64,000 nt of DNA from the NCBI RefSeq assembly GCF_047663525.1, contig NC_092591.1, forward strand, positions 32,335,001 through 32,399,000, written 5' to 3'. The position numbers and the translations under genes are program-made. Positions within the stretch are counted from its first letter, which is position 1. The number at the start of each line of letters is the position of its first letter. The notes under the pieces are model-generated. The model made no database searches. It was given only the letters and a program-made list of their open reading frames with translations, and had not been told where the DNA came from. Source of the stretch: Anas platyrhynchos. Taxonomy: Eukaryota; Chordata; Aves; Anseriformes; Anatidae. This document shows, piece after piece, positions 24,101-36,451 of this stretch.

Positions 24101-24842
24101 GGGATTTTGCCTGCCTCTAGGCAGATGTGGCTCGGGCTGAGGGCACGGTTTGAGGCAGAGCCCGTGGAGGCTCGCCAACTGGTGGTGGGAGTGCGGGGAT
24201 TGCTGATGGGCTGTCAGGCAGAGCGAAGCTCGGGGCATGGCCAAGAAAAAAATGGAGAAGCCGTCCAAAACCAGTGGATGGAAATAAAGGGATGAGGCAG
24301 GGATGTGCGAGTGTTTCGAGGAGAGAAGCAACCACGATTTCTCACCAGAACGTGAGCCTGGGCCTTCAGAGGCTTCACTTCTTCTGCCCAGTGAGAGGGA
24401 ATAGTGCTGGGAGAAGAGCTAGGAGTTGAAAAGTTTTGTTCTTAATTTGGTTACACGTTTTTGTCTCCACGACTGATCAGCTTTGGAGGAAGGCTCCTCG
24501 CTGCTCATTACAGCCTTTTGTCTACCCGAGGGGAGCTGCGGTTTCAAACAAGAGCCCAATCAAAGCAGCCAGCCCCGGTGCAAGCAGATTGTCTTCCAGG
24601 CAGACATCTCCTCGCTCGGATGGGTCCTCCCGGGGCGCGGCAGTTCTCCGTACACCATTTGGGGCTGGGCATTTGGCTTGGAGAGGCCAAAACCCAGCCG
24701 AGGGGCACATCTCCGGCCCGGGAGGGGGGCACTGCCCTGAGAGGCGGCTCTCGGGGGGCAGGAGCCGTGAGAGGGGCCGGGGCAGGAGCTGGGGGGGCTT
24801 TGGCTGGGAGCCCCCGGGGGGCTCCGTGCGGGGCGAGCCTCG

Positions 24843-24863
24843 GGCGCTGTCCGCGGTGCTGCC
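24843..24863 (-). promoter_or_regulatory. CHRM4: RE1/NRSE silencer element (REST binding site)
   Basis: The minus strand matches the 21-bp RE1 consensus at 18 of 21 positions by my count. Both the CAGCACC half and the GGACAGCGCC half are exact, separated by GC where the consensus has AC; the first two T are G here. REST/NRSF silencing of the M4 receptor gene through an RE1 in its promoter is established in rat, which fits this position about 0.4 kb upstream of the first in-frame ATG. Confidence 0.8.
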
Positions 24864-24931
24864 GGGGCGGTGCCGGAGGGTGGAGAGGGTAAAAAAAAAA
24901 AGGGGGGGGCAGCAGATTTAGCAGATTTTTT

Positions 24932-24941
24932 TATAATTTAT
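24932..24941 (+). promoter_or_regulatory. CHRM4: candidate TATA-like element of CHRM4
   Basis: TATAATTTAT stands out as an AT island inside very GC-rich sequence, 70 bp after the RE1. A start ~25-30 bp downstream would give a ~300-nt 5' UTR. The TSS is inferred only. Confidence 0.35.
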
Positions 24942-25096
24942 TTCATTCCGGGAGGGAGGCAGCAGCGAGGGGATTGGCCGCGGCACCGTGACGCCGCGGT
25001 CGCCCCCTCCCCTCGTTGCTCCAAGCCTCCCCCCGACGTGGGGGTGATGCTGGGGAGATGGGGGGGGGCACCGGGCCGAGCCGGCAGAGCCGGGTC

Positions 25097-25145
25097 CTCC
25101 CCCTCCTCCTCCTCATCCTCATCCTCCTCCTCCTCCTCCTCCTCT
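25097..25145. repeat. CHRM4: (CTC/CTT)n pyrimidine tract in CHRM4 5' region
   Basis: CCT/CAT repeat array of ~50 nt, uninterrupted pyrimidine apart from two A. It is probably transcribed as part of the CHRM4 5' UTR and is likely to vary in length between individuals. Confidence 0.85.
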
Positions 25146-25216
25146 TCCCCACGCCCCTCCCCGCCCTCCGCACGGCGCCGCCGGCAGCCGGGAGCCGGGA
25201 GGAGCCGGCCGGGGCC

Positions 25217-25276
25217 ATGAGCACCGGAGCCCCCGACGGGGCGGCGGCGAGCTCGGCGCTGCGGGATGGCCGCTGA
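25217..25276 (+). CDS. upstream ORF in CHRM4 exon 1
   Basis: ATG at 25217 (context GGGGCCATGA, G at -3) opens a 19-codon frame that ends with TGA at 25274-25276. It overlaps the in-frame CHRM4 start candidate at 25266 in another frame. If translated, it would limit use of the 25266 start. This is seen in sequence; translation is inference. Confidence 0.4.
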   Translation: MSTGAPDGAAASSALRDGR

Positions 25277-25320
25277 CAACCGCTCGGCGCCGGGCGGCGG
25301 AGAGCCCTGGGGGCTGCCCG
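25266..25320 (+). CDS. CHRM4: CHRM4 exon 1, candidate N-terminal extension
   Basis: Exon 1 ends at the strong donor G|gtgagt (25321). ATG 25266 has a good context (G at -3, G at +4). Its frame (MAADNRSAPGGGEPWGLP) stays open to the donor and, spliced to 30819-30860 and then 31006, runs in frame into the receptor. The 5' limit of the exon is unknown. Rodent M4 genes have an untranslated exon at this place, so the conservative reading is 5' UTR. Confidence 0.45.
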
Positions 25321-28300
25321 GTGAGTGGCGGGGGGCAGGGGGCACCCCCGGACCGGGGGCACCCCGAGGAGGTGGGGGGGTGGAGGGGGGCGTGCTCCCG
25401 AGGCGCGCACCCCCGGGGATGGCGCACACGGGGAGGGGGTCGGGGGGGCTCGCTGATAACTTCCCTCGGCCACGCAGCCCCCTGCCCCTCTGGACACCCC
25501 TCTGGCTGTCCCGTCCTGTCCCGTCTCCCTTGTCCCGTCCCGCAGCAGCGAGGGGCAGCGCTCGCCCCCTTCGTCCCCATCCTGGGCTGCCCCCTGTCCC
25601 CATCCCGCTGACATCCCGGCTGGCGGGGGTCGCGCAGCCCCACCCTGCTCCTTGCCAAAATCGTGCCTTTGGCTTCAGACCAGGGGGCCGGTTCTTGGCA
25701 CTCCTTCAAGCCAAAGCAGCGCCGGCTTCTCCTCTCTCTCCCTCTGTAAGCCCCTCTGACTGTGCCACAGCCGCGTTTGCCGTCTGGTCCTTGCAGACAC
25801 CGGGGTTGGAGGGGCTGGAGGGGCACTTCCCCAGCTGGGAAAGAGCCGTCCTGCCTCGTCCTGAGGAGCTGGGCTGTGGGTGTCAGCGCATGGAGGAGCC
25901 CTGCTTCGCCCCGGGCACCCGGGGTGACCTCGGAGGGCGGCCGGGTTCCCCCGCGCTGCTGGCAGGGTGAGCAGGGGCTGGCACCCGGCTCCTCGAGCCT
26001 GGTGCTAGCAAAACACACAAGAAGCCAGCGAGCCAGGGCCCAGGCCTCCGGTGAAACATCCCCGGTGGCAGTGCTCGTGCTGAAAGCACAGGTAGCAGCG
26101 GGACGCGTGGAGCTGTCACCACCTCGGGGCACCACCGCTTCCTAACACCTGGCCTCGTGTGCTCGGAGCGCCCATAGCCTGGGCTAGGTCCCGTTACGCA
26201 CCCCAGGACATGCTCCCAGGGGAGCTGAGCGGCTGGCTTCACCCTCACGGACAGGCTAAAAATTAGGGACACATCCCCGGTGCTCACTTGGCCAGGCTGG
26301 AGGCCAGCGGGCAGGGTGGGCTGGAGATGCAGGAAGGCGTCCAGCAAACGTGGCTTGTTCCCCCACGTGAGGGGCATGCCCGTCGCCGCAGGTCAGTCTG
26401 GTTTCTTTCATCGAAGAGAAATGAACTGAAATGATTAATTAATGCTGCGATCCAATTACTCTGAGTTTGCAGAAGAAGTATGGCTTTTCTCTTCAAACTA
26501 TCCCCAAGAGGAGCCTATTGATACCAGCTCCTGTCATGGTTGTGCTTGTTGTTGTCGTTGTTTTTTTTTTCTTGTAACGAACATGACAGACGTCTCCCCA
26601 GCAAAACGCAGCCAGAGGCAGGGATGGATGTGGTGAGAGAGGTGCCCAGCACACCTTGGCTTTGGAGCCCCTCTTCCCCCGCTGTGCTGGGACGCGGCCG
26701 CAGCGGGGCCGGTGGGCACAGCCGGTGGCAGCGGGGAGAGCAGCAGCAGGAGGAGAGGGAAATGGAGGCTGTTTGCAAGGGGCTGCTGCTCGCTGCACAA
26801 ACGCAGCTCGTCGTTCCACGTGCGTGCACACACAGCCAGCCCTTCATGTGCACAAACTGCCCCTTGGCACTCAGCGGGGCATTTACCAGAGAAGCAGGCT
26901 CTGTCCTTGGCTGGTCGCTGCTGGGTTTGGCACGGGGATATGCCCCTCTTGTTCCCAGGTGATCCGAGGGGGTAGATTTGCTTTGCATTTCAGCATCCTC
27001 CCCGGGCTGGCTCTAACGCCAGCTCAGGAAGCCGCAAGGTGGGCGCCGGGGCAGCGAGGCAGTGGAAGTTCAAACCAAGCCATTCCCATCCACCTCCCTC
27101 CCCTCTTCATCCCCGCTGCTCAGCCTGTGTTAGCCCCACAGCCGTGCCAGGACCAGCGGTGGGGATGCTCAGCCCTGAGCCACGCCGAGGCCTCTTCAAG
27201 CCAGCACACGGTCTGGAGGCACACCAAAGCCCGAGTGGAGCCGCGGCGGCCCCGTGCTGCTCCCGTGACTCAGAGGGGCCGGGAGGGCTGCCGGGAGCCG
27301 CGGCGGCTGTTTGCTCCTCTTCGAGAGCCTGGCAGAGGAGCCCCATCCCGGGTCAGCTGGAGGGGAGGAGCGGCAGCGGGGAGCCTGGCCATTAAAGGCA
27401 GGGTGCTGGAAGCGTGGCAGGCTGCCCCGATGCCACGCTGAGCGGGCTCTGCCGCAGCCCCTGCCAGTGGTGCAGCAGCCAGATGCAGGAGACCCAGCCG
27501 GAGAAGCAGCCCCTCGATTACCACTATATTCTGAATGTGTTTTACAGCTCCTCGCAGCTTGCAAGGCGCCACAGCCGCAGGCATTTGTCCTGCCCAAGCC
27601 AGGCCATGGTGGCACCGGGTGGCACCAAGGTTTGGGCACTGAGAGGAGAGGGGTGCTGGGCCCGGGGGCAGGCACAGAAATTGCTGAGGTGCTTTGCAAC
27701 GGGCAGGGTGGGAGCCGGCTGCCACCCGCCGTGTTAAGGGTTAATGGCGAGTTGGTTTGGGTCCAGCAGAGCGGGGCCGATTGGCCTGTGGGAAACTCAA
27801 AAGTTTTGGTTGTGCAACACCAAGGGCCGAAAACATCATTTTGTGCAAACACAATGTCCCGTGGCCGGGTCACAGGGCAAATCTCGAGCGGCAGCTCGGC
27901 GCCTGGATCCCAAACCCTCCCAGCACCTCCTCGGCGGGGCAGCAGGATCATCCGACTGCTGGGACGGGATGGGATGGGATGGGATGGGTGCCTTATGGGG
28001 TCAGCACGGGGCAGCTGGGATCCAACCCCGCAGTTGACTTGTTTTCGGTCCCAAGCTGTCCTCACTGCTCCCTCTCCCCCTGTCTCTCCTGTCTCCTCTC
28101 TGATCCAGGCAGCCACTTGTTGCAGCCACCCTCCTGCCCTCTCCCTCCATCCCCTCTCCCCTGCCCTTTTCCTGCTGTGTTATCCGGGGTTATTTGTGCC
28201 GCGCCGCCTCCGAGCAGCTGGGTCCTGCTGAAGCTCCAGCCCAGGGCTACAGAAGAGCGTGAGCATCTCTCTGAGGCAGGCAGCATTAATGCAGCAGGCG

Positions 28301-30818
28301 CCAGAAGCTCAGCTCTGTCCTGGGCTCCGCAGAGACCCAAGAGCATCCCGACCTCTGTGCGAGTCCTCTGGCAGGCACGCTTGCTGCCAGCCTGACATTT
28401 TTGGGGACTTTGGTGCCCCCCCAGCCTCACCATGCAGGGGCAAAAGGAGCCTGGCAGTCCCAGAGGAGCACATCCCGCCGGCCCCTCTGCTTCTGGCTGC
28501 TTTCCCACTTGTTTTATCACCTCCATCGCTCCCCAGGTGTGGAGCAGCCAGGCAGAGCCCCCCGAGGAACCCCCCCAGCAGTAGGACCCCTCCTTTACCC
28601 GCTCCCCACACATCTCTCCGCATCCCTGGGGTGCCTGCGGCGGGTCCCCAGGATTTCCACGCACTCCAGAGGTGTGAATCTGCCAACCAGAACAGCCCCT
28701 TGCTGGATGTAAGCTGCTGCCGGGACTCAGAAACTCGTTAGAAGCTATTAGATAACGCAATTAGCACCACAAACTGTCACCCCAGTGAGCAGGGGTAGCC
28801 ATTCAGCATCCCCCACCCCTCCCCTCTCCCTTCTCCCTTTTGCTGAGGGCTGAGCCCCACATCACATCCCCAGTTGGACACATCGGGCCTAACCCTGTGG
28901 CATTTTTAACCTCTGGGTCCTTTGGGTCATCAGCCTTTAGGTTCATGGCATCAGCGTTAATGGCACGCCAAACCCGGCCGCCCCAAGGCGGGTTGTCCCA
29001 ACCCCTCCTGCAGCCTTGGATGCACCTCATCCCTTTAGCTGTGCTGTGTGGGGAGGGAACGAGCTTCTCTGCCTCAAGGATATACTTTTTAGTGGCTCCA
29101 CGGAGAGGAGAAAGCTGCGAAATTCACTGCAGGCAGCCCCAGGGAGGGGGCAGGCAGCTGAGGATGCTGCAGCTGGTGGAAGCGGGGCCGGGGGCACATC
29201 TGCTGAGCGCTGTGGCCAAGGGACAGTGTGTGCAGGGACAGAAACCAGCCAGTATCTGGGGCTGTGGGCCCTGTGGGCATCAGCCCCAGGAAACCCCACG
29301 GGATGTCCTCTGGGCTTTGCCAGGGCTGCCTCTCCGGCTGTGGTGTGTGGAGGGGACAGGGACCAGGAGGACTGTGGGGAGGGGAGGAACACGCTGCTGG
29401 AGGTGCAGGAGGAGAGAGCTGGGCATGGAAGAGGACAGCCCGAAGGCATCCTTTCCTATCATCCTACCCAAGGGTGCCCCCATCCCAATGGGCCAGCCGC
29501 GGGGCTGCTCCTCGGGGAGGGAAACCCGCCTGGGAGGGCTGGAGCTGCTGCTGGGGAAGGGGACCTCGTGCCACCAGGCAAAGCCAGGCAAGGTGACACT
29601 GAGAGTGTGGCAAACACAAAGCACGACCTCTGTCCCCAGTGCCACCACAGCGGCTGAGCTGTGGGCACGATGCACGGCCTGGCTGTGGAGAGGTGGTGGG
29701 GTGGAGAGGGCAGCAGGTGGGGAAAGAAAAGCTGCCCGATAGAGCAGGGCATGGCAGAAAACAGCCAATATTCATTTTCAAAACACTGGTTGAAGTCTTT
29801 CATCCCGAGGATCCCGTTTCCTCTTTTTTTCAGCCCAGAAATTTTCAACCTGACCTCTGGGTGGCATCCAAGGACATTTCAGCGGGGCCTCTGCAGCCCT
29901 CTCCCTAATGCCCTGCGAGTCGTGTGGTGTGGTGGGATGAGCTGCACTTGTCTTACTTACGTATTTTGGATCCATTTGCACACCTGGGACACGTGCATGG
30001 TGGGGCAAAGCCAGTGCTGCTCTATTTTGATAGCCCTTGGTCTACACGAGCAGCCAGCAAGGATAACCATGTGTTATTGGCAAAATCAGCTCCAGGACAG
30101 CCGGGGTGCTGGGAGCCAGTGCTGCCTCCACAGCTGGCTGCAAGGGACAAACTTTGCCAGCCACACACCAGCTTGGGCTGCTGCTGGCCTCCGTCGGGCC
30201 TGTGGTGGCCACCTCCTCTTGGCCTTGCCCCCAGTAGCCCCAGGGCCAGGGCTCAGCAAAAATCATCACAGAAAGTATCGCTGCTTTCTGAGAGATACAG
30301 GAGGCAAAGAAGAATATTTGCTCTGGAAGCACGGTGTAACAATAAGCGAGGCTTCCTTAGAAAAACAAACATGTTCCTCCTTTCCTTTCTTTCAGCCCTG
30401 GAGGGTTTTCTTAAAGCGAGTTTTGGGGCTGGGTGGCGTGTGAGAGGCGGGTCGGGTGGGAAGCTCTGCCCAGCCCCTTTGCTTCTCCTCCCCCCTCCAC
30501 GAAATTCCCCCTTCGTACCAATTTTGGTCCAATGATTTTCTGGAGGGCCACGCTCCTCTTAGCCATCCCCCTGGAGGATTACCCACAAGCATTGTGGTTT
30601 GGGTGGAGGCAGTCTTTCTGCCCATCATCTCCCACACCCTCCAGGGCCAGGCTGTGAACCCAGCCAAGACAAATTACCCGGGGATGGCAATCCCTTTCCC
30701 CGCCTGCTCCGAAACCACACAGCTTTTGGGGAAGGCAGGCCAGGCCGGCGTGCTGTAGGACGTGTATGGACATCTCGGGGTTGAAGCCAAGTGTAACTTG
30801 CTGTTTTCCCTGTCTCAG
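25321..30818 (+). other. CHRM4: CHRM4 intron 1
   Basis: 5.5 kb between donor 25321 and acceptor 30818. It holds a G4-capable GGGAT array (27961-27988), two identical TTGTGCAA C/EBP-like words (27810 and 27841), and AT-rich islands near 26395-26480 and 28725-28780. Open frames on both strands are GC artefacts. Confidence 0.7.
27961..27988 (+). repeat. (GGGAT)n array, G-quadruplex-capable
   Basis: Six GGG runs separated by two-base loops (AC, then AT). It fits the canonical G4 pattern on the transcribed-RNA-like strand of CHRM4 intron 1. Confidence 0.8.
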
Positions 30819-30860
30819 ATTTCCTCTTCCAGAAGGAGCTGCTTGCTGCCAGAGACACAG
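30819..30860 (+). CDS. CHRM4: CHRM4 exon 2 (42 nt), in frame with the receptor
   Basis: Acceptor ccctgtctcag, donor gtgagc, 42 nt (14 codons). It reads DFLFQKELLAARDT in the frame that joins exon 1 to the receptor. It may equally be an untranslated exon. The exact multiple of three and the absence of stops support coding potential but are not decisive at this length. Confidence 0.5.
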
Positions 30861-31010
30861 GTGAGCACCGCGGGCCGTGGTGTGGCTTTGTGGGGTGTCC
30901 TGCCGGTGGGCAGCCCTCCCTGAGGGGCTCACAGCCCCCCAGGATGGACACGCGGACCCGCAGGTGTGATAACGTTCTCCCTTTCTGTCCCCGCTCCCCT
31001 TGCAGACCCC

Positions 31011-32483
31011 ATGCACAACCTCTCTGCGCAGCCCTGGCAGGCGAAGATGGCCAACCTGACCTACGACAACGTCACCCTCAGCAACCGCTCCGAGGTGGCC
31101 ATCCAGCCTCCCACCAACTACAAGACGGTGGAGATGGTCTTCATCGCCACGGTCACCGGCTCGCTCAGCCTCGTCACCGTGGTGGGCAACATCCTGGTGA
31201 TGCTGTCCATCAAGGTGAACCGCCAGCTCCAGACCGTCAACAACTACTTCCTCTTCAGCCTGGCCTGCGCGGACCTCATCATCGGGGTCTTCTCCATGAA
31301 CCTCTACACGGTCTACATCATCAAAGGCTACTGGCCGCTGGGGGCCGTGGTGTGCGACCTGTGGCTGGCCCTGGACTACGTGGTGAGCAACGCCTCAGTC
31401 ATGAACTTACTCATCATCAGCTTTGACCGCTACTTCTGTGTCACCAAGCCCCTGACGTACCCGGCCAGGAGGACCACCAAGATGGCAGGGCTAATGATTG
31501 CGGCTGCGTGGATATTGTCCTTCATTCTCTGGGCCCCTGCCATCTTGTTCTGGCAGTTCATTGTGGGCAAGAGGACAGTCCCTGAGGGGGAATGCTACAT
31601 CCAGTTCCTCTCCAACCCGGCAGTGACCTTCGGCACGGCCATCGCTGCTTTCTACCTGCCCGTGGTCATCATGACGGTGCTGTACATCCACATCTCCCTG
31701 GCCAGCAGGAGCAGGGTGAGGAGGCACAAGCCTGAAAGCAGGAAAGAGAGGAAAGGCAAGTCCCTCAGCTTTTTCAAGGCCCCCCTGATCAAACAGAACA
31801 ACAACAACTCCCCCAAGAGGGCAGTGGAGGTGAAGGAGGAGGTGAGGAATGGGAAGGTGGATGACCAACCCTCGGCACAGACAGAGGCCACTGGCCACCA
31901 GGAGGAGAAGGAGACCTCCAACGAGTCCAGCACGGTCAGCATGACCCAGACCACAAAAGACAAGACCACAGCGGAAATCTTGCCAGCGGGGCAAGGGCAG
32001 AGCCCGTCCCACCCCCGGGTGAACCCAACTTCCAAGTGGTCCAAGATCAAGATCGTCACCAAGCAGACGGGGACCGAGTGTGTCACCGCCATCGAGATCG
32101 TCCCGGCCAAGGGAGGAGCCTCTGAGCACAACTCCCTGTCCAACAGCCGCCCGGCCAACGTCGCCAGGAAGTTTGCCAGCATCGCCAGGAGCCAGGTGCG
32201 GAAGAAGCGCCAGATGGCAGCCCGGGAGAAGAAGGTCACCCGGACCATATTTGCCATCCTGCTGGCCTTCATACTCACCTGGACTCCATACAACGTCATG
32301 GTCCTCATTAACACCTTCTGCCAGACCTGCGTTCCCGAAACGGTGTGGTCCATCGGCTACTGGCTCTGCTACGTCAACAGCACCATCAACCCGGCCTGCT
32401 ACGCCCTCTGCAACGCCACCTTCAAGAAAACCTTCAAGCATCTCCTCATGTGCCAGTACAGGAACATTGGCACGGCCAGATAA
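31011..32483 (+). CDS. CHRM4: muscarinic acetylcholine receptor M4
   Basis: A single coding exon encodes a 490-residue class A GPCR that couples acetylcholine to Gi/o at the plasma membrane. N-terminal glycosylation sequons are at N3, N15, N20 and N25. Seven membrane segments follow, with the ligand aspartate D122 (3.32), conserved C115, DRY at 139-141, a ~190-residue third cytoplasmic loop rich in Lys/Glu/Ser and with QNNNNS, a WTPYN motif in TM6, NPACY in TM7 and the tail [10 protein letters not shown]. All of this matches avian M4. The exon begins at 31006 after ccttgcag, five bases before the ATG. That ATG has a weak context (C at -3 and +4). Met13 (ATG 31047, A at -3 and G at +4) aligns with the mammalian start. 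The start site is therefore ambiguous; the receptor identity is not. Confidence 0.97.
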
Positions 32484-33077
32484 GCTGGCACTCAGGGACC
32501 ACTTCAGCCAAGTCACGGCGGGCCTCCCCTTTGTCTCCTTTGTCCCGAGGGGAGACAGAGGTGGGGGGTCCTCTGCTCCCCACTCACAGAAGTGCAGACT
32601 GTGAAGTGCTGGCAGGTGATGCCCTTCAACGCTGACGAAGGCCCACGGCACTGCTGGGCTGCAGCTCCTCCAGTCACCCCGGGCCCAGGGACTCGCTGGG
32701 GGAGCCAGAGAGAGAGCTGGAGGTGAGACGAGACCAGGAGGGGTGGTTGCCAGGAGCCCTCCCAGCCCTTGAAATGTTGGCCGAATGGCATCAGTGCTTG
32801 TCATCAGACTGGGTGCCTCTTCTGACCACCTCCCAGGCCTCAGAGCTTGTTTGCACGCAGGCGGCCTAACGCCAGATGCTTTCGATAGGCTTGTAGACCA
32901 TTTATTGCCCAAAATGAAAAGAAACAGGGGGCCAAACTTGCCAGCCACTTCGGACCAGGCTGGCTTGAGTGTGCTGATAAAGCCCTTCTGGCCCATCCAG
33001 GCCCTCTCCTGAGGAGGTCAAGGTTGTGCCGTAGCAGCTGTGCCGAGCTCCCCTCCTACCCCCCGATCTCACATCCT

Positions 33078-33143
33078 GACCCAGGGACCTGTGGGGAAAG
33101 CGTGGGGCACGACCCAGGGACGTGTGGGGAAGGCGTGGGGCAC
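33078..33143. repeat. 33-bp tandem duplication
   Basis: Copies 33078-33110 and 33111-33143 differ at two positions (c/g and a/g). The unit begins GACCCAGGGAC and ends CGTGGGGCAC. It lies in the CHRM4 3' UTR. Confidence 0.9.
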
Positions 33144-34316: not shown

Positions 34317-34342
34317 CTAGTCCTTCCCCTTGCCCTTCTTTG
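34317..34342 (-). CDS. MDK: MDK exon 5: basic tail and stop
   Basis: 26 coding nt after acceptor ggctgcag. Encodes AKKGKGKD and TAG (34317-34319). The same exon continues as 3' UTR to about 33990. Confidence 0.93.
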
Positions 34343-35020
34343 CTGCAGCCGATGACCATGGGAGACAGGTGTTAGCACGGCCGCTGGCAGACCCCTGCTG
34401 CCCCAAAACAGCCCCCCCAGCCCCAAGAGCCACTGCCCGGGGGCGGGTGGGAGGCTGGGGACTCACCTTTGGACTTGGACTTCATCTTGGAGGCACAGGG
34501 CTTGCTCACGTAGACGATCTCCTCGCACTGGGCGTTGTACAGGGCTTTCTTCAGGATGCCCGAGCGAGTTTTCACGCCCGTCTGCGCGCTGCACCCTCCC
34601 CAGCTCTCAAACTTGTACTTGCAGTCGGCTGCGAGAGGCAAGAGGTGTTACGGACGTGCAGCACCCGGCGCAGCCCCCAGCCACCCCCCGGCCGCCCCCA
34701 CACCTCCGAATTTCTTCTTCCAGTTGCAGGGGATCTTGCACTTGAGCTTCTTGCTCTCGTCCCCACAGGTCCCCTCGCGGTAGCCCAAGCCGCAGTCCTT
34801 GCTGTTGGGGACGCAGGGCCCCCAGCGCCAGTCCTGGCACTCGGAGCCATCCTTCTTCACCTTGTCTGCAAGACAGGGAGCGGGTGGGAGTGGTGGGAGC
34901 GTGCCCCTGACCCCCCTACATCCCCCCAGGCTCCCCCTCACCTTTCTTGGCTTTGCCAGCCTCGGTGGTGACAGCCAGCAGCAGCAGTGCCAGGAGGAGG
35001 AGGAGGCCCCGGGGCTGCAT
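34317..35020 (-). CDS. MDK: midkine, heparin-binding growth factor
   Basis: Four coding exons on the minus strand: 34942-35020, 34704-34865, 34467-34628 and 34317-34342. All borders are GT-AG, every junction falls after the first base of a codon, and the sum is 429 nt = 142 codons plus stop. Midkine is a secreted cytokine that binds heparan sulfate and receptors such as PTPRZ, ALK and LRP1. Residues 1-22 or so form a Leu-rich signal peptide ([19 protein letters not shown]). The N-domain (27-80) has six cysteines (36, 44, 51, 60, 69, 73) and the C-domain (81-134) has four (83, 93, 115, 125), which gives the family's five disulfides. The heparin-binding C-domain retains K84, R102 and K107/K108, and the Lys-rich tail ends KKGKGKD. 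Close to chicken midkine (RIHB); pleiotrophin is excluded by the tail and the length. Confidence 0.97.
34467..34628 (-). CDS. MDK: MDK exon 4: C-domain
   Basis: 162 nt, the same length as the preceding domain exon. Begins [13 protein letters not shown] and ends SKMKSKSK. Carries four cysteines and the heparin-binding surface. Confidence 0.95.
34704..34865 (-). CDS. MDK: MDK exon 3: N-domain
   Basis: 162 nt. Begins [18 protein letters not shown] and ends NWKKKFG. Contains six cysteines. Confidence 0.95.
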
Positions 35021-35025
35021 CCTGC
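34942..35025 (-). CDS. MDK: MDK exon 2: start codon and signal peptide
   Basis: Acceptor ccccag, then GCAGG before the ATG (35018-35020). It encodes 26 residues (secretion signal plus AGKAKK) and one base of Asp27. Donor gtgagg. Confidence 0.95.
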
Positions 35026-36451
35026 CTGGGGAAGGAGGGATGGGGGGGACGGTGGGGACCCCGTGCCACACGGCCCCGCAGTGCTCAGCGGCTCTCATCC
35101 AGCGCCCAGCACCAAAGAATGCCGGGGCCAGAGCCTGTGGCTGCCATGGTGCCTTACCCCAGCTCCCAAGGAATCCAGGGATGGGAGAAACAATCCCAGC
35201 AAAAGCAGCCCCCTGCCATGGGGGGGCCGGGGAGCTGAGCCAGCAGATCTCACACACAAGTGCACGCAGTGTGCGAGCTCGCCGGAGCGATTTAGCAGGA
35301 GCGCTGCGCCCACTGCTGGCTCTACACCCATCAGCACATCGCCCGAGCACCAGGCATGTGCACCAGGCGTGTGCATGAGTGTGTGTGTGTGTGTGTGTGT
35401 GTGTGCACAACGGCAGGGCGAGCCCTTCCTGGCAGCAGCCCCGTGGGCTGGGGGATCGATGCCTGCTGGAGAGCGGTGCCCGCATTAGGCAGGCTCCAGC
35501 GCCCTCGCCTCCGTGCACCCGCCGCTGGCTGCGCTCTGAATGGAGCTGTCAGGGGGGATTACACAGCCCGGCTGGATGAAGGCTGGGAACCGTCCTGCCC
35601 AGCACGGCCCTGCTGCCTTCGGAGGGGACGAGGGCTCAGCCCACAAGCCTGATTTCGGAGGGCAGGGCTGGGGCTGAGCTGCTCCTGCCCCGCTTGCTGC
35701 AGGGTCCCCTGGGGCAGCGCTGGCACCCGCACGATGCACGGCGTCGCCCGATGCTCGGTGTTTGGTGCTCTGTAACTTCTCTCCACCACAGAGCACTTCC
35801 CTTGGTGTCTGCGCCCTCTGGCACTGTCCCTGCTCAGCCCCCTCCTCAGCCGTGGGCACCCCTGGGTCCCCAAGGCGTGGGGACCCCATGCAGGGTGCGC
35901 AGGGACCCTCATCCTCAAGCGTCCATGGATAAAAGGCAGGGCAGCTTTCTGCCCGCTTTCCCCTCCTTCCCCCTGCCCGCTGCTCACCCAAGGGCTGTCC
36001 CCGCTTCCCCTCCCTGCTCCGGGTGCCCTGACCCTAAACCAGAGCCCAAACCCCCCCCGGCGATGCTGGAAGAGGCGCCCCAGCACCGGGGCCGAGCTCC
36101 TCCTCGGCTGGGCAGCGGGGGGGTGGGCACAGGGAACAGGACCCCTCTGTCCCCACAGCACCAGCACCGGGCACTTTGGGGACAAGGGGGGCTTTCTGCC
36201 CCCATCCCCCCGACCCCCTCCAGCTGAAGGGAGCACCCAGGGCCCCCCACTTCCCTTCCCCACCCTCAGGCAGCGCCGTCCCCTCCCCAAGCGTGTGCGC
36301 GGGGGGCTAAGATCCAGCACCCCCCACGCCTCCCCTCTTGCCCCGCGACCCCCGCAGCTGCTCCCTCACCCCATAACCCCCCTTCTCCCGCCCCCCGGGG
36401 GATGGGGATGAGGTTTGGGGGGCCGGGGCACCCCGTCGGGGCCGCACTCAC
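35026..36451 (-). other. MDK: MDK first intron
   Basis: 1.4-kb intron between the untranslated first exon and the start-codon exon. Contains (GT)13 at 35379-35405; nothing else is recognised. Confidence 0.75.
35379..35405. repeat. (GT)13 microsatellite
   Basis: Perfect dinucleotide array in the MDK first intron, likely polymorphic. Confidence 0.95.

Follow-up and report, generated by a model that had tools for sequence, protein, structure and literature searches.

Judged by its sequence, the receptor gene in the 64-kb window (i.e. the whole stretch of DNA that was analyzed) is CHRM4, and its open reading frame (ORF) is nearest M4 among muscarinic receptors. Specifically, this ORF matches 7tm_1 (E = 2.7e-63), and the best five of 45 rows from a PDB search are all M4 (E 5e-236 to 6.6e-188); an M2 chimera ranks sixth, above three more M4 fusion constructs, and the rows for M3, M5, and M1 score below M4. 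Midkine exons, recognized from the PDB and Pfam matches of neighboring exons, lie on the minus strand at about 34.3–35.0 kb, tail-to-tail with the receptor gene, the same arrangement as at human CHRM4. Among five peptides of the window compared with Pfam, two exceed the curated cut-off (DAGK_acc and PTN_MK_C), one matches DAGK_cat below it, one matches an unrelated family weakly, and one matches nothing; an ankyrin-like peptide in the window also has a Pfam match under the cut-off. Searches for the receptor gave 4 pattern matches in viral contigs and 40 in bacterial and archaeal genome contigs, none of which were confirmed. The features of the locus are listed in Table 1.

Table 1. Features at the 5' end of CHRM4, by position in the window; exons and regulatory functions are predicted.
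Feature	Position	Strand	Remarks
RE1/NRSE-like (REST) site GGCAGCACCGCGGACAGCGCC	24843..24863	-	Probably acts on the M4 promoter as a neuronal silencer
uORF, 19 codons (MSTGAPDGAAASSALRDGR)	25217..25276	+	Other frame, overlaps ATG 25266; G at -3, A at +4
Exon 1 portion of the extension	25266..25320	+	Codons 1-18 plus one base; strong Kozak; donor G/GTGAGT
Exon 2, 42 nt, symmetric phase 1-1 cassette	30819..30860	+	Remainder of D19, FLFQKELLAARDT, first base of D33
Exon 3	31006..32483 (ORF end)	+	Acceptor 31006, five bases, complete M4 receptor ORF
M4 muscarinic acetylcholine receptor, 490-aa reading	31011..32483	+	ATG 31011, weak context
478-aa reading	31047..32483	+	Strong-context ATG 31047 = Met13 of the 490 aa

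Upstream of exon 1, positions 24843–24863 probably represent a near-canonical RE1/REST site that would act as a silencer of the M4 promoter. Scored with an approximate consensus and weights set by the analyst rather than a curated matrix, this is the best RE1 match in the window (15.6 of 17.4, with the runner-up at 13.0), and its score is reached in none of 60 simulated 64-kb windows and none of 500 local 1-kb simulations. Near exon 1, a TCC tract (25095–25162) is the sole tandem array. Between 24000 and 36000, Rfam returned zero matches at the gathering threshold.

Given the predicted splicing, the frame that opens at ATG 25266 enters the receptor without a stop, as the sequence-only reading had proposed. 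Its pieces measure 55 nt (25266–25320), 42 nt (30819–30860), and 5 nt (31006–31010, ACCCC). Splicing yields an ORF of 524 codons, whose sole stop ends at 32483; the 524 aa comprise the 490-codon CHRM4 receptor and 34 additional N-terminal residues, MAADNRSAPGGGEPWGLPDFLFQKELLAARDTDP. Both junctions are in phase 1 (G/AT and G/AC), so skipping of the 42-nt exon 2 keeps the frame, leaving 20 extra codons and 511 aa (stop position included). The extension had been described as non-glycosylated, which we reject because an N-glycosylation sequon (N5-R6-S7) lies within it. The share encoded by exon 1 is a Gly/Pro-rich peptide from GC-rich DNA. Searched together with 12 receptor residues, the extension has no Pfam match up to E = 1, and its one match among solved chains is at chance level (E 0.46). 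No direct repeats of at least 25 nt in 24500–32600 cover its exon pieces.

Exons 1 and 2 look genuine, with predicted splice sites of a quality far above background. Scored with matrices that are approximations and not curated files, the donors at 30860 and 25320 rank first and second among the 279 GTs of 24500–31005, and the acceptors of exon 2 and exon 3 (31006) rank fourth and sixth among the 426 AGs of the same region. Exon 2 is the sole plus-strand cassette of 20–300 nt in the window with splice scores at least equal to its own two; on either strand, the only others at these thresholds are the midkine signal-peptide exon (35025–34942) and a 32-nt candidate (45387–45356). Relaxing both thresholds to 9.5 yields 6 cassettes on the plus and 11 on the minus strand of the window, some of which at least are surely false. 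A TAAC branch-point core lies 22 nt upstream of the AG of exon 2 and a TGATAAC core 33 nt upstream of the exon 3 acceptor; TAAC cores accompany 6.9% of 421 local AGs, in a test chosen post hoc with the sites already seen. A rival acceptor at 30833 scores 10.32, and its use would throw ATG 25266 out of frame. Among control sites, the midkine donor at 34942 scores 11.09 versus 4.66 at 34920, and the assumed last midkine acceptor and one midkine donor score 1.53 and 7.23, so that presumed true sites may score far below those of exon 2.

Could exon 2 be a decoy, with the usual transcript joining exon 1 directly to exon 3 and an extension of at most 20 codons? The direct junction is likewise in frame, and the rat m4 gene is a two-exon gene. 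However, exon 2 combines the best donor of the region with a top acceptor and its branch core, and when the intron is simulated with a Markov model, only 2% of 300 runs contain a cassette that equals or exceeds its scores; a decoy is very improbable. The exon structure and the open frame are, as predictions from the DNA, well supported.

The AUG contexts given earlier are confirmed, with G at -3 and +4 around ATG 25266 and C at both positions around ATG 31011. Two nearby starts had been overlooked. The first, ATG 31047, corresponds to Met13 of the 490 aa and lies in a strong context (A at -3, G at +4); its Met aligns with residue 1 of the M4 chains 7v68_R and 8e9x_A. The weak context of 31011 had been taken to argue for an upstream start, but by itself it does not support one, because this strong ATG, 36 nt downstream, matches the start of solved M4 chains. 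The second opens the uORF at 25217–25276 (G at -3), which precedes ATG 25266 and overlaps it out of frame. In all, three ATGs (25047, 25058, and 25217) come before 25266 within 24900–25265, and the frames of two of them end at 25276, beyond 25266. An upstream AUG in adequate context whose ORF overlaps a later start, or ends ahead of it, is the arrangement of a uORF-controlled leader, which the predicted transcript would have. Translation from 25266 is plausible, given an upstream transcription start and scanning rules; with a transcription start downstream of 25266 the extension would be absent.

An open frame of such length was rejected as coding evidence by itself. In simulations (n = 20,000), the probability is 0.60 that 34 codons are open, 0.21 that an ATG 34 or more codons upstream is both open and in frame, and 0.32 that a 420-nt exon 1 holds any ATG with these two properties. 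Two of the three frames are open when 25221–25320 is joined to exon 2 and the five bases. The codon score per codon is -0.23 in the extension versus +0.73 in the receptor CDS, and 9.4% of 2,799 stop-free random joins reach the score of the extension. Neither chance openness (0.21–0.32) nor codon use gives a clear sign of coding selection. The proposal that exons usually taken as untranslated encode a longer N-terminus is partly supported, in its exon structure and open frame but not by signs of coding selection.

These results also fit another situation, in which exons 1 and 2 are the usual untranslated 5' leader, ATG 25266 starts no receptor, and the 490/478-aa receptor is the only form, either because transcription starts downstream of 25266 or because upstream uORFs capture ribosomes. 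Along with the chance openness and a codon use unlike that of the CDS, the three ATGs ahead of 25266, the two frames that end past it, and the strong context of ATG 31047, whose Met matches residue 1 of solved M4 chains, are all consistent with this situation. It is nevertheless rather unlikely in our judgment, as an mRNA started upstream and spliced as predicted should sometimes use a stop-free, in-frame AUG with G at -3 and +4.

Conversely, the extension might be selected and conserved in the main isoform of birds, and perhaps other sauropsids, with exon 2 coding and 25266 the true start. The strong AUG, the symmetric phase 1-1 exon that keeps the frame whether in or out, the resemblance of the N-R-S sequon to those in the remaining N-terminus, and a codon score that fewer than one in ten stop-free random joins reach would all agree with selection. 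We find it improbable, however, given the overlapping uORF before the start, an openness that is ordinary by chance with two of three frames open, solved M4 chains that begin at the residue matching 31047, and an exon 1 part that reads as Gly/Pro-rich peptide from GC-rich DNA.

The explanation we propose, with evenly balanced confidence, is a genuine CHRM4 5' end with a multi-AUG leader that yields mainly the 478/490-aa receptor and, depending on the transcription start, some 524-aa isoform. In this layout, the RE1 site would be followed downstream by the GC-rich exon 1, the 42-nt cassette exon 2, and exon 3 with the whole receptor, and the spliced leader would present its AUGs in the order uORF (25217–25276), strong in-frame 25266, weak 31011, and strong 31047. 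The sequence, the frame, the quality of the sites, and the AUG contexts are observed directly, while we infer the transcription start, the splicing in vivo, every translation step, and the topology. Ribosomes that translate the uORF would bypass 25266 and reinitiate downstream, chiefly at 31047, to give the usual receptor; those that leak past the uORF, or mRNAs that start between 25217 and 25266, would allow initiation at 25266 and hence a 524-aa receptor. Over a distance of no more than about 130 nt, ribosomes usually reinitiate poorly, and other transcripts or starts may therefore supply most of the canonical product. The long form would carry 34 residues beyond the 490-aa reading (20 with exon 2 skipped), in an acidic, probably flexible, extracellular N-terminus with one additional N-glycan sequon. 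Most likely, the extension owes its origin to a leader that is open in this frame by chance, and it is tolerated with no demonstrable selection for it.

M4, a major drug target, is considered to be encoded entirely within one exon. Among the matches listed from the open-licence literature (titles and abstract openings), there is no report of an N-terminally extended M4 receptor. If real outside mammals, an alternative N-terminus would mean revising the annotation of a receptor under much study, could influence trafficking, glycosylation, or signaling in the manner of GPR35, and would inform the question of whether the N-terminal introns of teleosts are gains or ancestral. If this is just an open leader, it offers a useful caution regarding upstream AUGs that are in frame where 5' exons are rich in GC.

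In mammalian CHRM4, the receptor ORF is free of introns and a 5' exon is joined to it by splicing just upstream; the rat m4 gene consists of one non-coding exon (exon 1) and one coding exon and is not known to have the 42-nt exon. Rat exon 1 is non-coding, whereas the leader here is open in frame. The likeness to the rat gene lies in this layout and in an RE1-type site that would control the gene. That REST controls the m4 receptor gene is stated in PMC10605157 (its refs 112 and 113; Wood 1996; Mieda 1997). In teleosts, CHRM4a and CHRM4b have N-terminal introns, which PMC6298421 reports as teleost-specific gains beside a general statement on single-exon coding sequence. As in the long form predicted here, an intron falls within the coding N-terminus and the upstream exon holds coding sequence; the difference is that those introns are reported as specific to teleosts. 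Speculatively, and with only slight credence on our part, birds and perhaps other non-mammalian vertebrates may have a conserved, N-glycosylated 34-residue M4 N-terminus over three exons. The teleost introns would then correspond to this one ancestral 5' intron, which would lie in coding sequence in fish and birds but, after the start codon moved downstream, in untranslated sequence in mammals, and a uORF would select the long or short form.

Human GPR35b/a offers a further comparison. By the use of different promoters, by splicing, and by alternative start codons, it has two N-termini that differ by 31 residues, and these isoforms differ hardly in agonist potency but do differ in response amplitudes, as described in PMC9450150. 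The receptor, gene, and extension sequence are unlike those of CHRM4 here, and the GPR35 isoforms are backed by transcript and functional data, whereas the long CHRM4 form is predicted from sequence. What the two would share is a GPCR with N-terminal forms that are otherwise identical, and CHRM4 here, given the predicted splicing, has an in-frame, stop-free upstream AUG.

The frame opened by ATG 25266 covers 55 nt up to the exon 1 donor (G/GTGAGT), the 42 nt of exon 2 (30819-30860) and five bases (31006-31010) before ATG 31011 of the M4 receptor, and its 34 codons (MAADNRSAPGGGEPWGLPDFLFQKELLAARDTDP) contain no stop, with the spliced ORF yielding a 524-aa product. The coordinates, lengths and lack of a stop given by the sequence-only reading are borne out, and its observation was correct and careful. 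Both introns flanking exon 2 are phase 1, so a transcript that skips this exon stays in frame and carries 20 extra codons. For the receptor ORF, the five top-ranking rows of the solved-structure search are M4 chains and Pfam identifies a rhodopsin-family 7TM protein; its N-terminus presumably resembles chicken M4, and searches of viral and prokaryote contigs returned no receptor relatives. Two 33-bp tandem copies (93% matches) lie between CHRM4 and midkine (33078-33143). Also downstream, on the - strand, are diacylglycerol-kinase-like exons (one accessory-domain match above the cut-off, one catalytic-domain match below it); the human CHRM4 neighbourhood likewise holds midkine, tail-to-tail, and a diacylglycerol kinase.

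Features of the CHRM4 locus, with positions counted within the window
Feature	Position	Strand	Remarks
RE1/REST-like site	24843-24863	-	near-canonical sequence match; ~400 bp upstream of ATG 25266
uORF	25217-25276	+	19 codons; G at -3; stop beyond ATG 25266, overlapping it
M4 muscarinic receptor ORF	31011-32483	+	complete, 490 codons
Midkine exons	34340-35030	-	downstream of CHRM4, tail-to-tail; identified by PDB and Pfam

With approximate splice-site matrices, the donors at 30860 and 25320 rank first and second among 279 GTs (24500-31005), and the acceptors at 30819 and 31006 fourth and sixth among 426 AGs (25321-31010). Exon 2 is the sole cassette (an internal acceptor-donor pair) of 20-300 nt on the whole + strand of the window to reach both its own scores, and a cassette of that level occurs in 2% of 300 Markov-simulated introns. 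The - strand holds two, namely the midkine signal-peptide-start exon and a 32-nt candidate at 45387-45356; the latter, a possible microexon among the diacylglycerol-kinase-like exons, has very strong splice sites (12.04/12.15). TAAC branch-point cores lie at normal distances from the acceptors of exon 2 (22 nt) and exon 3 (33 nt), against a background of 6.9% of 421 local AGs. The RE1-like site is the window's top match (15.6 of 17.4; runner-up 13.0), a score reached by 0 of 60 simulated 64-kb windows, and it likely marks the M4 promoter. A TCC tandem array occupies 25095-25162 of the presumed promoter/leader. The m4 receptor gene is reported to be under REST control (PMC10605157). Splice-site ranks, cassette uniqueness, branch cores and the RE1-like site together indicate that the predicted exons 1 and 2 are very probably genuine 5' exons, and we regard exon 2 as a decoy as highly improbable. 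A second good acceptor, overlooked earlier, lies 14 nt into exon 2 (30833, +; score 10.32) and, if used, would shift ATG 25266 out of the receptor frame.

The open frame by itself is weak evidence of coding. As the sequence-only reading cautioned, chance openness is not negligible: among 20,000 simulations of local composition, 34 codons stayed free of stops in 60%; 21% had an open in-frame ATG 34 or more codons upstream, and 32% had one anywhere in an exon 1 of 420 nt. Exon 2 lacks stops in every frame, and the joined leader piece in two of its three, so openness gives little frame signal. Scored against receptor codon usage, the extension frame reaches -0.23 per codon, versus -0.34 and -1.13 for the other frames, while the receptor CDS scores +0.73. 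Of 5,000 random joins drawn, 2,799 were stop-free, and 9.4% of these score as high as the extension. The extension plus 12 receptor residues, a 46-residue piece, has no Pfam match and nothing meaningful among solved structures. That exons 1 and 2 are purely untranslated is possible, if rather unlikely.

The weak context of ATG 31011 had been read as a pointer to an upstream start, which does not hold, because ribosomes can use the previously overlooked ATG 31047 (Met13; A at -3, G at +4) and need no upstream start. This codon, giving a 478-aa product, lines up with the first residue of M4 chains 7v68_R and 8e9x_A, and is presumably where native human M4 begins. The 524-aa receptor as the selected main form seems improbable; we find the chances evenly balanced that the leader yields some 524-aa receptor as a by-product that is tolerated.

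Start choice may be framed by the scanning model of initiation. Leaky scanning past the uORF, a previously overlooked potential translational switch, or transcription starting between 25217 and 25266, would let ribosomes initiate at 25266 and make the 524-aa receptor. On mRNAs that begin upstream of 25217, ribosomes translating the uORF would bypass ATG 25266; such translation, or transcription starting further down, would give the 490/478-aa receptor, chiefly via 31047. Longer mRNAs would carry more ATGs ahead of 25266 (25047, 25058, also 24620). Over 308 nt, the leader around the competing start codons is predicted to fold into strong structure (-145.7 kcal/mol).

The extension has a net charge of -3 and, judged by hydropathy alone, nothing that would pass as a signal peptide or membrane segment (the highest Kyte-Doolittle mean over 9 residues is 0.88), from which it is natural to infer an extracellular, flexible N-terminus. 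It had been called non-glycosylated, a description at odds with its N5-R6-S7 sequon; four more N-glycosylation sequons occur within the first 56 residues, the stretch scanned, of the 490-aa reading.

It is an attractive idea that the N-terminal introns of teleost CHRM4a/CHRM4b, reported as teleost-specific gains (PMC6298421), are putatively the CHRM4 5' intron seen here. Human GPR35, as described in PMC9450150, has long and short forms with a 31-residue N-terminal difference, produced via promoter choice, splicing and alternative starts, with potency hardly changed and response amplitudes changed. The CHRM4 locus would work similarly if the long form is made.
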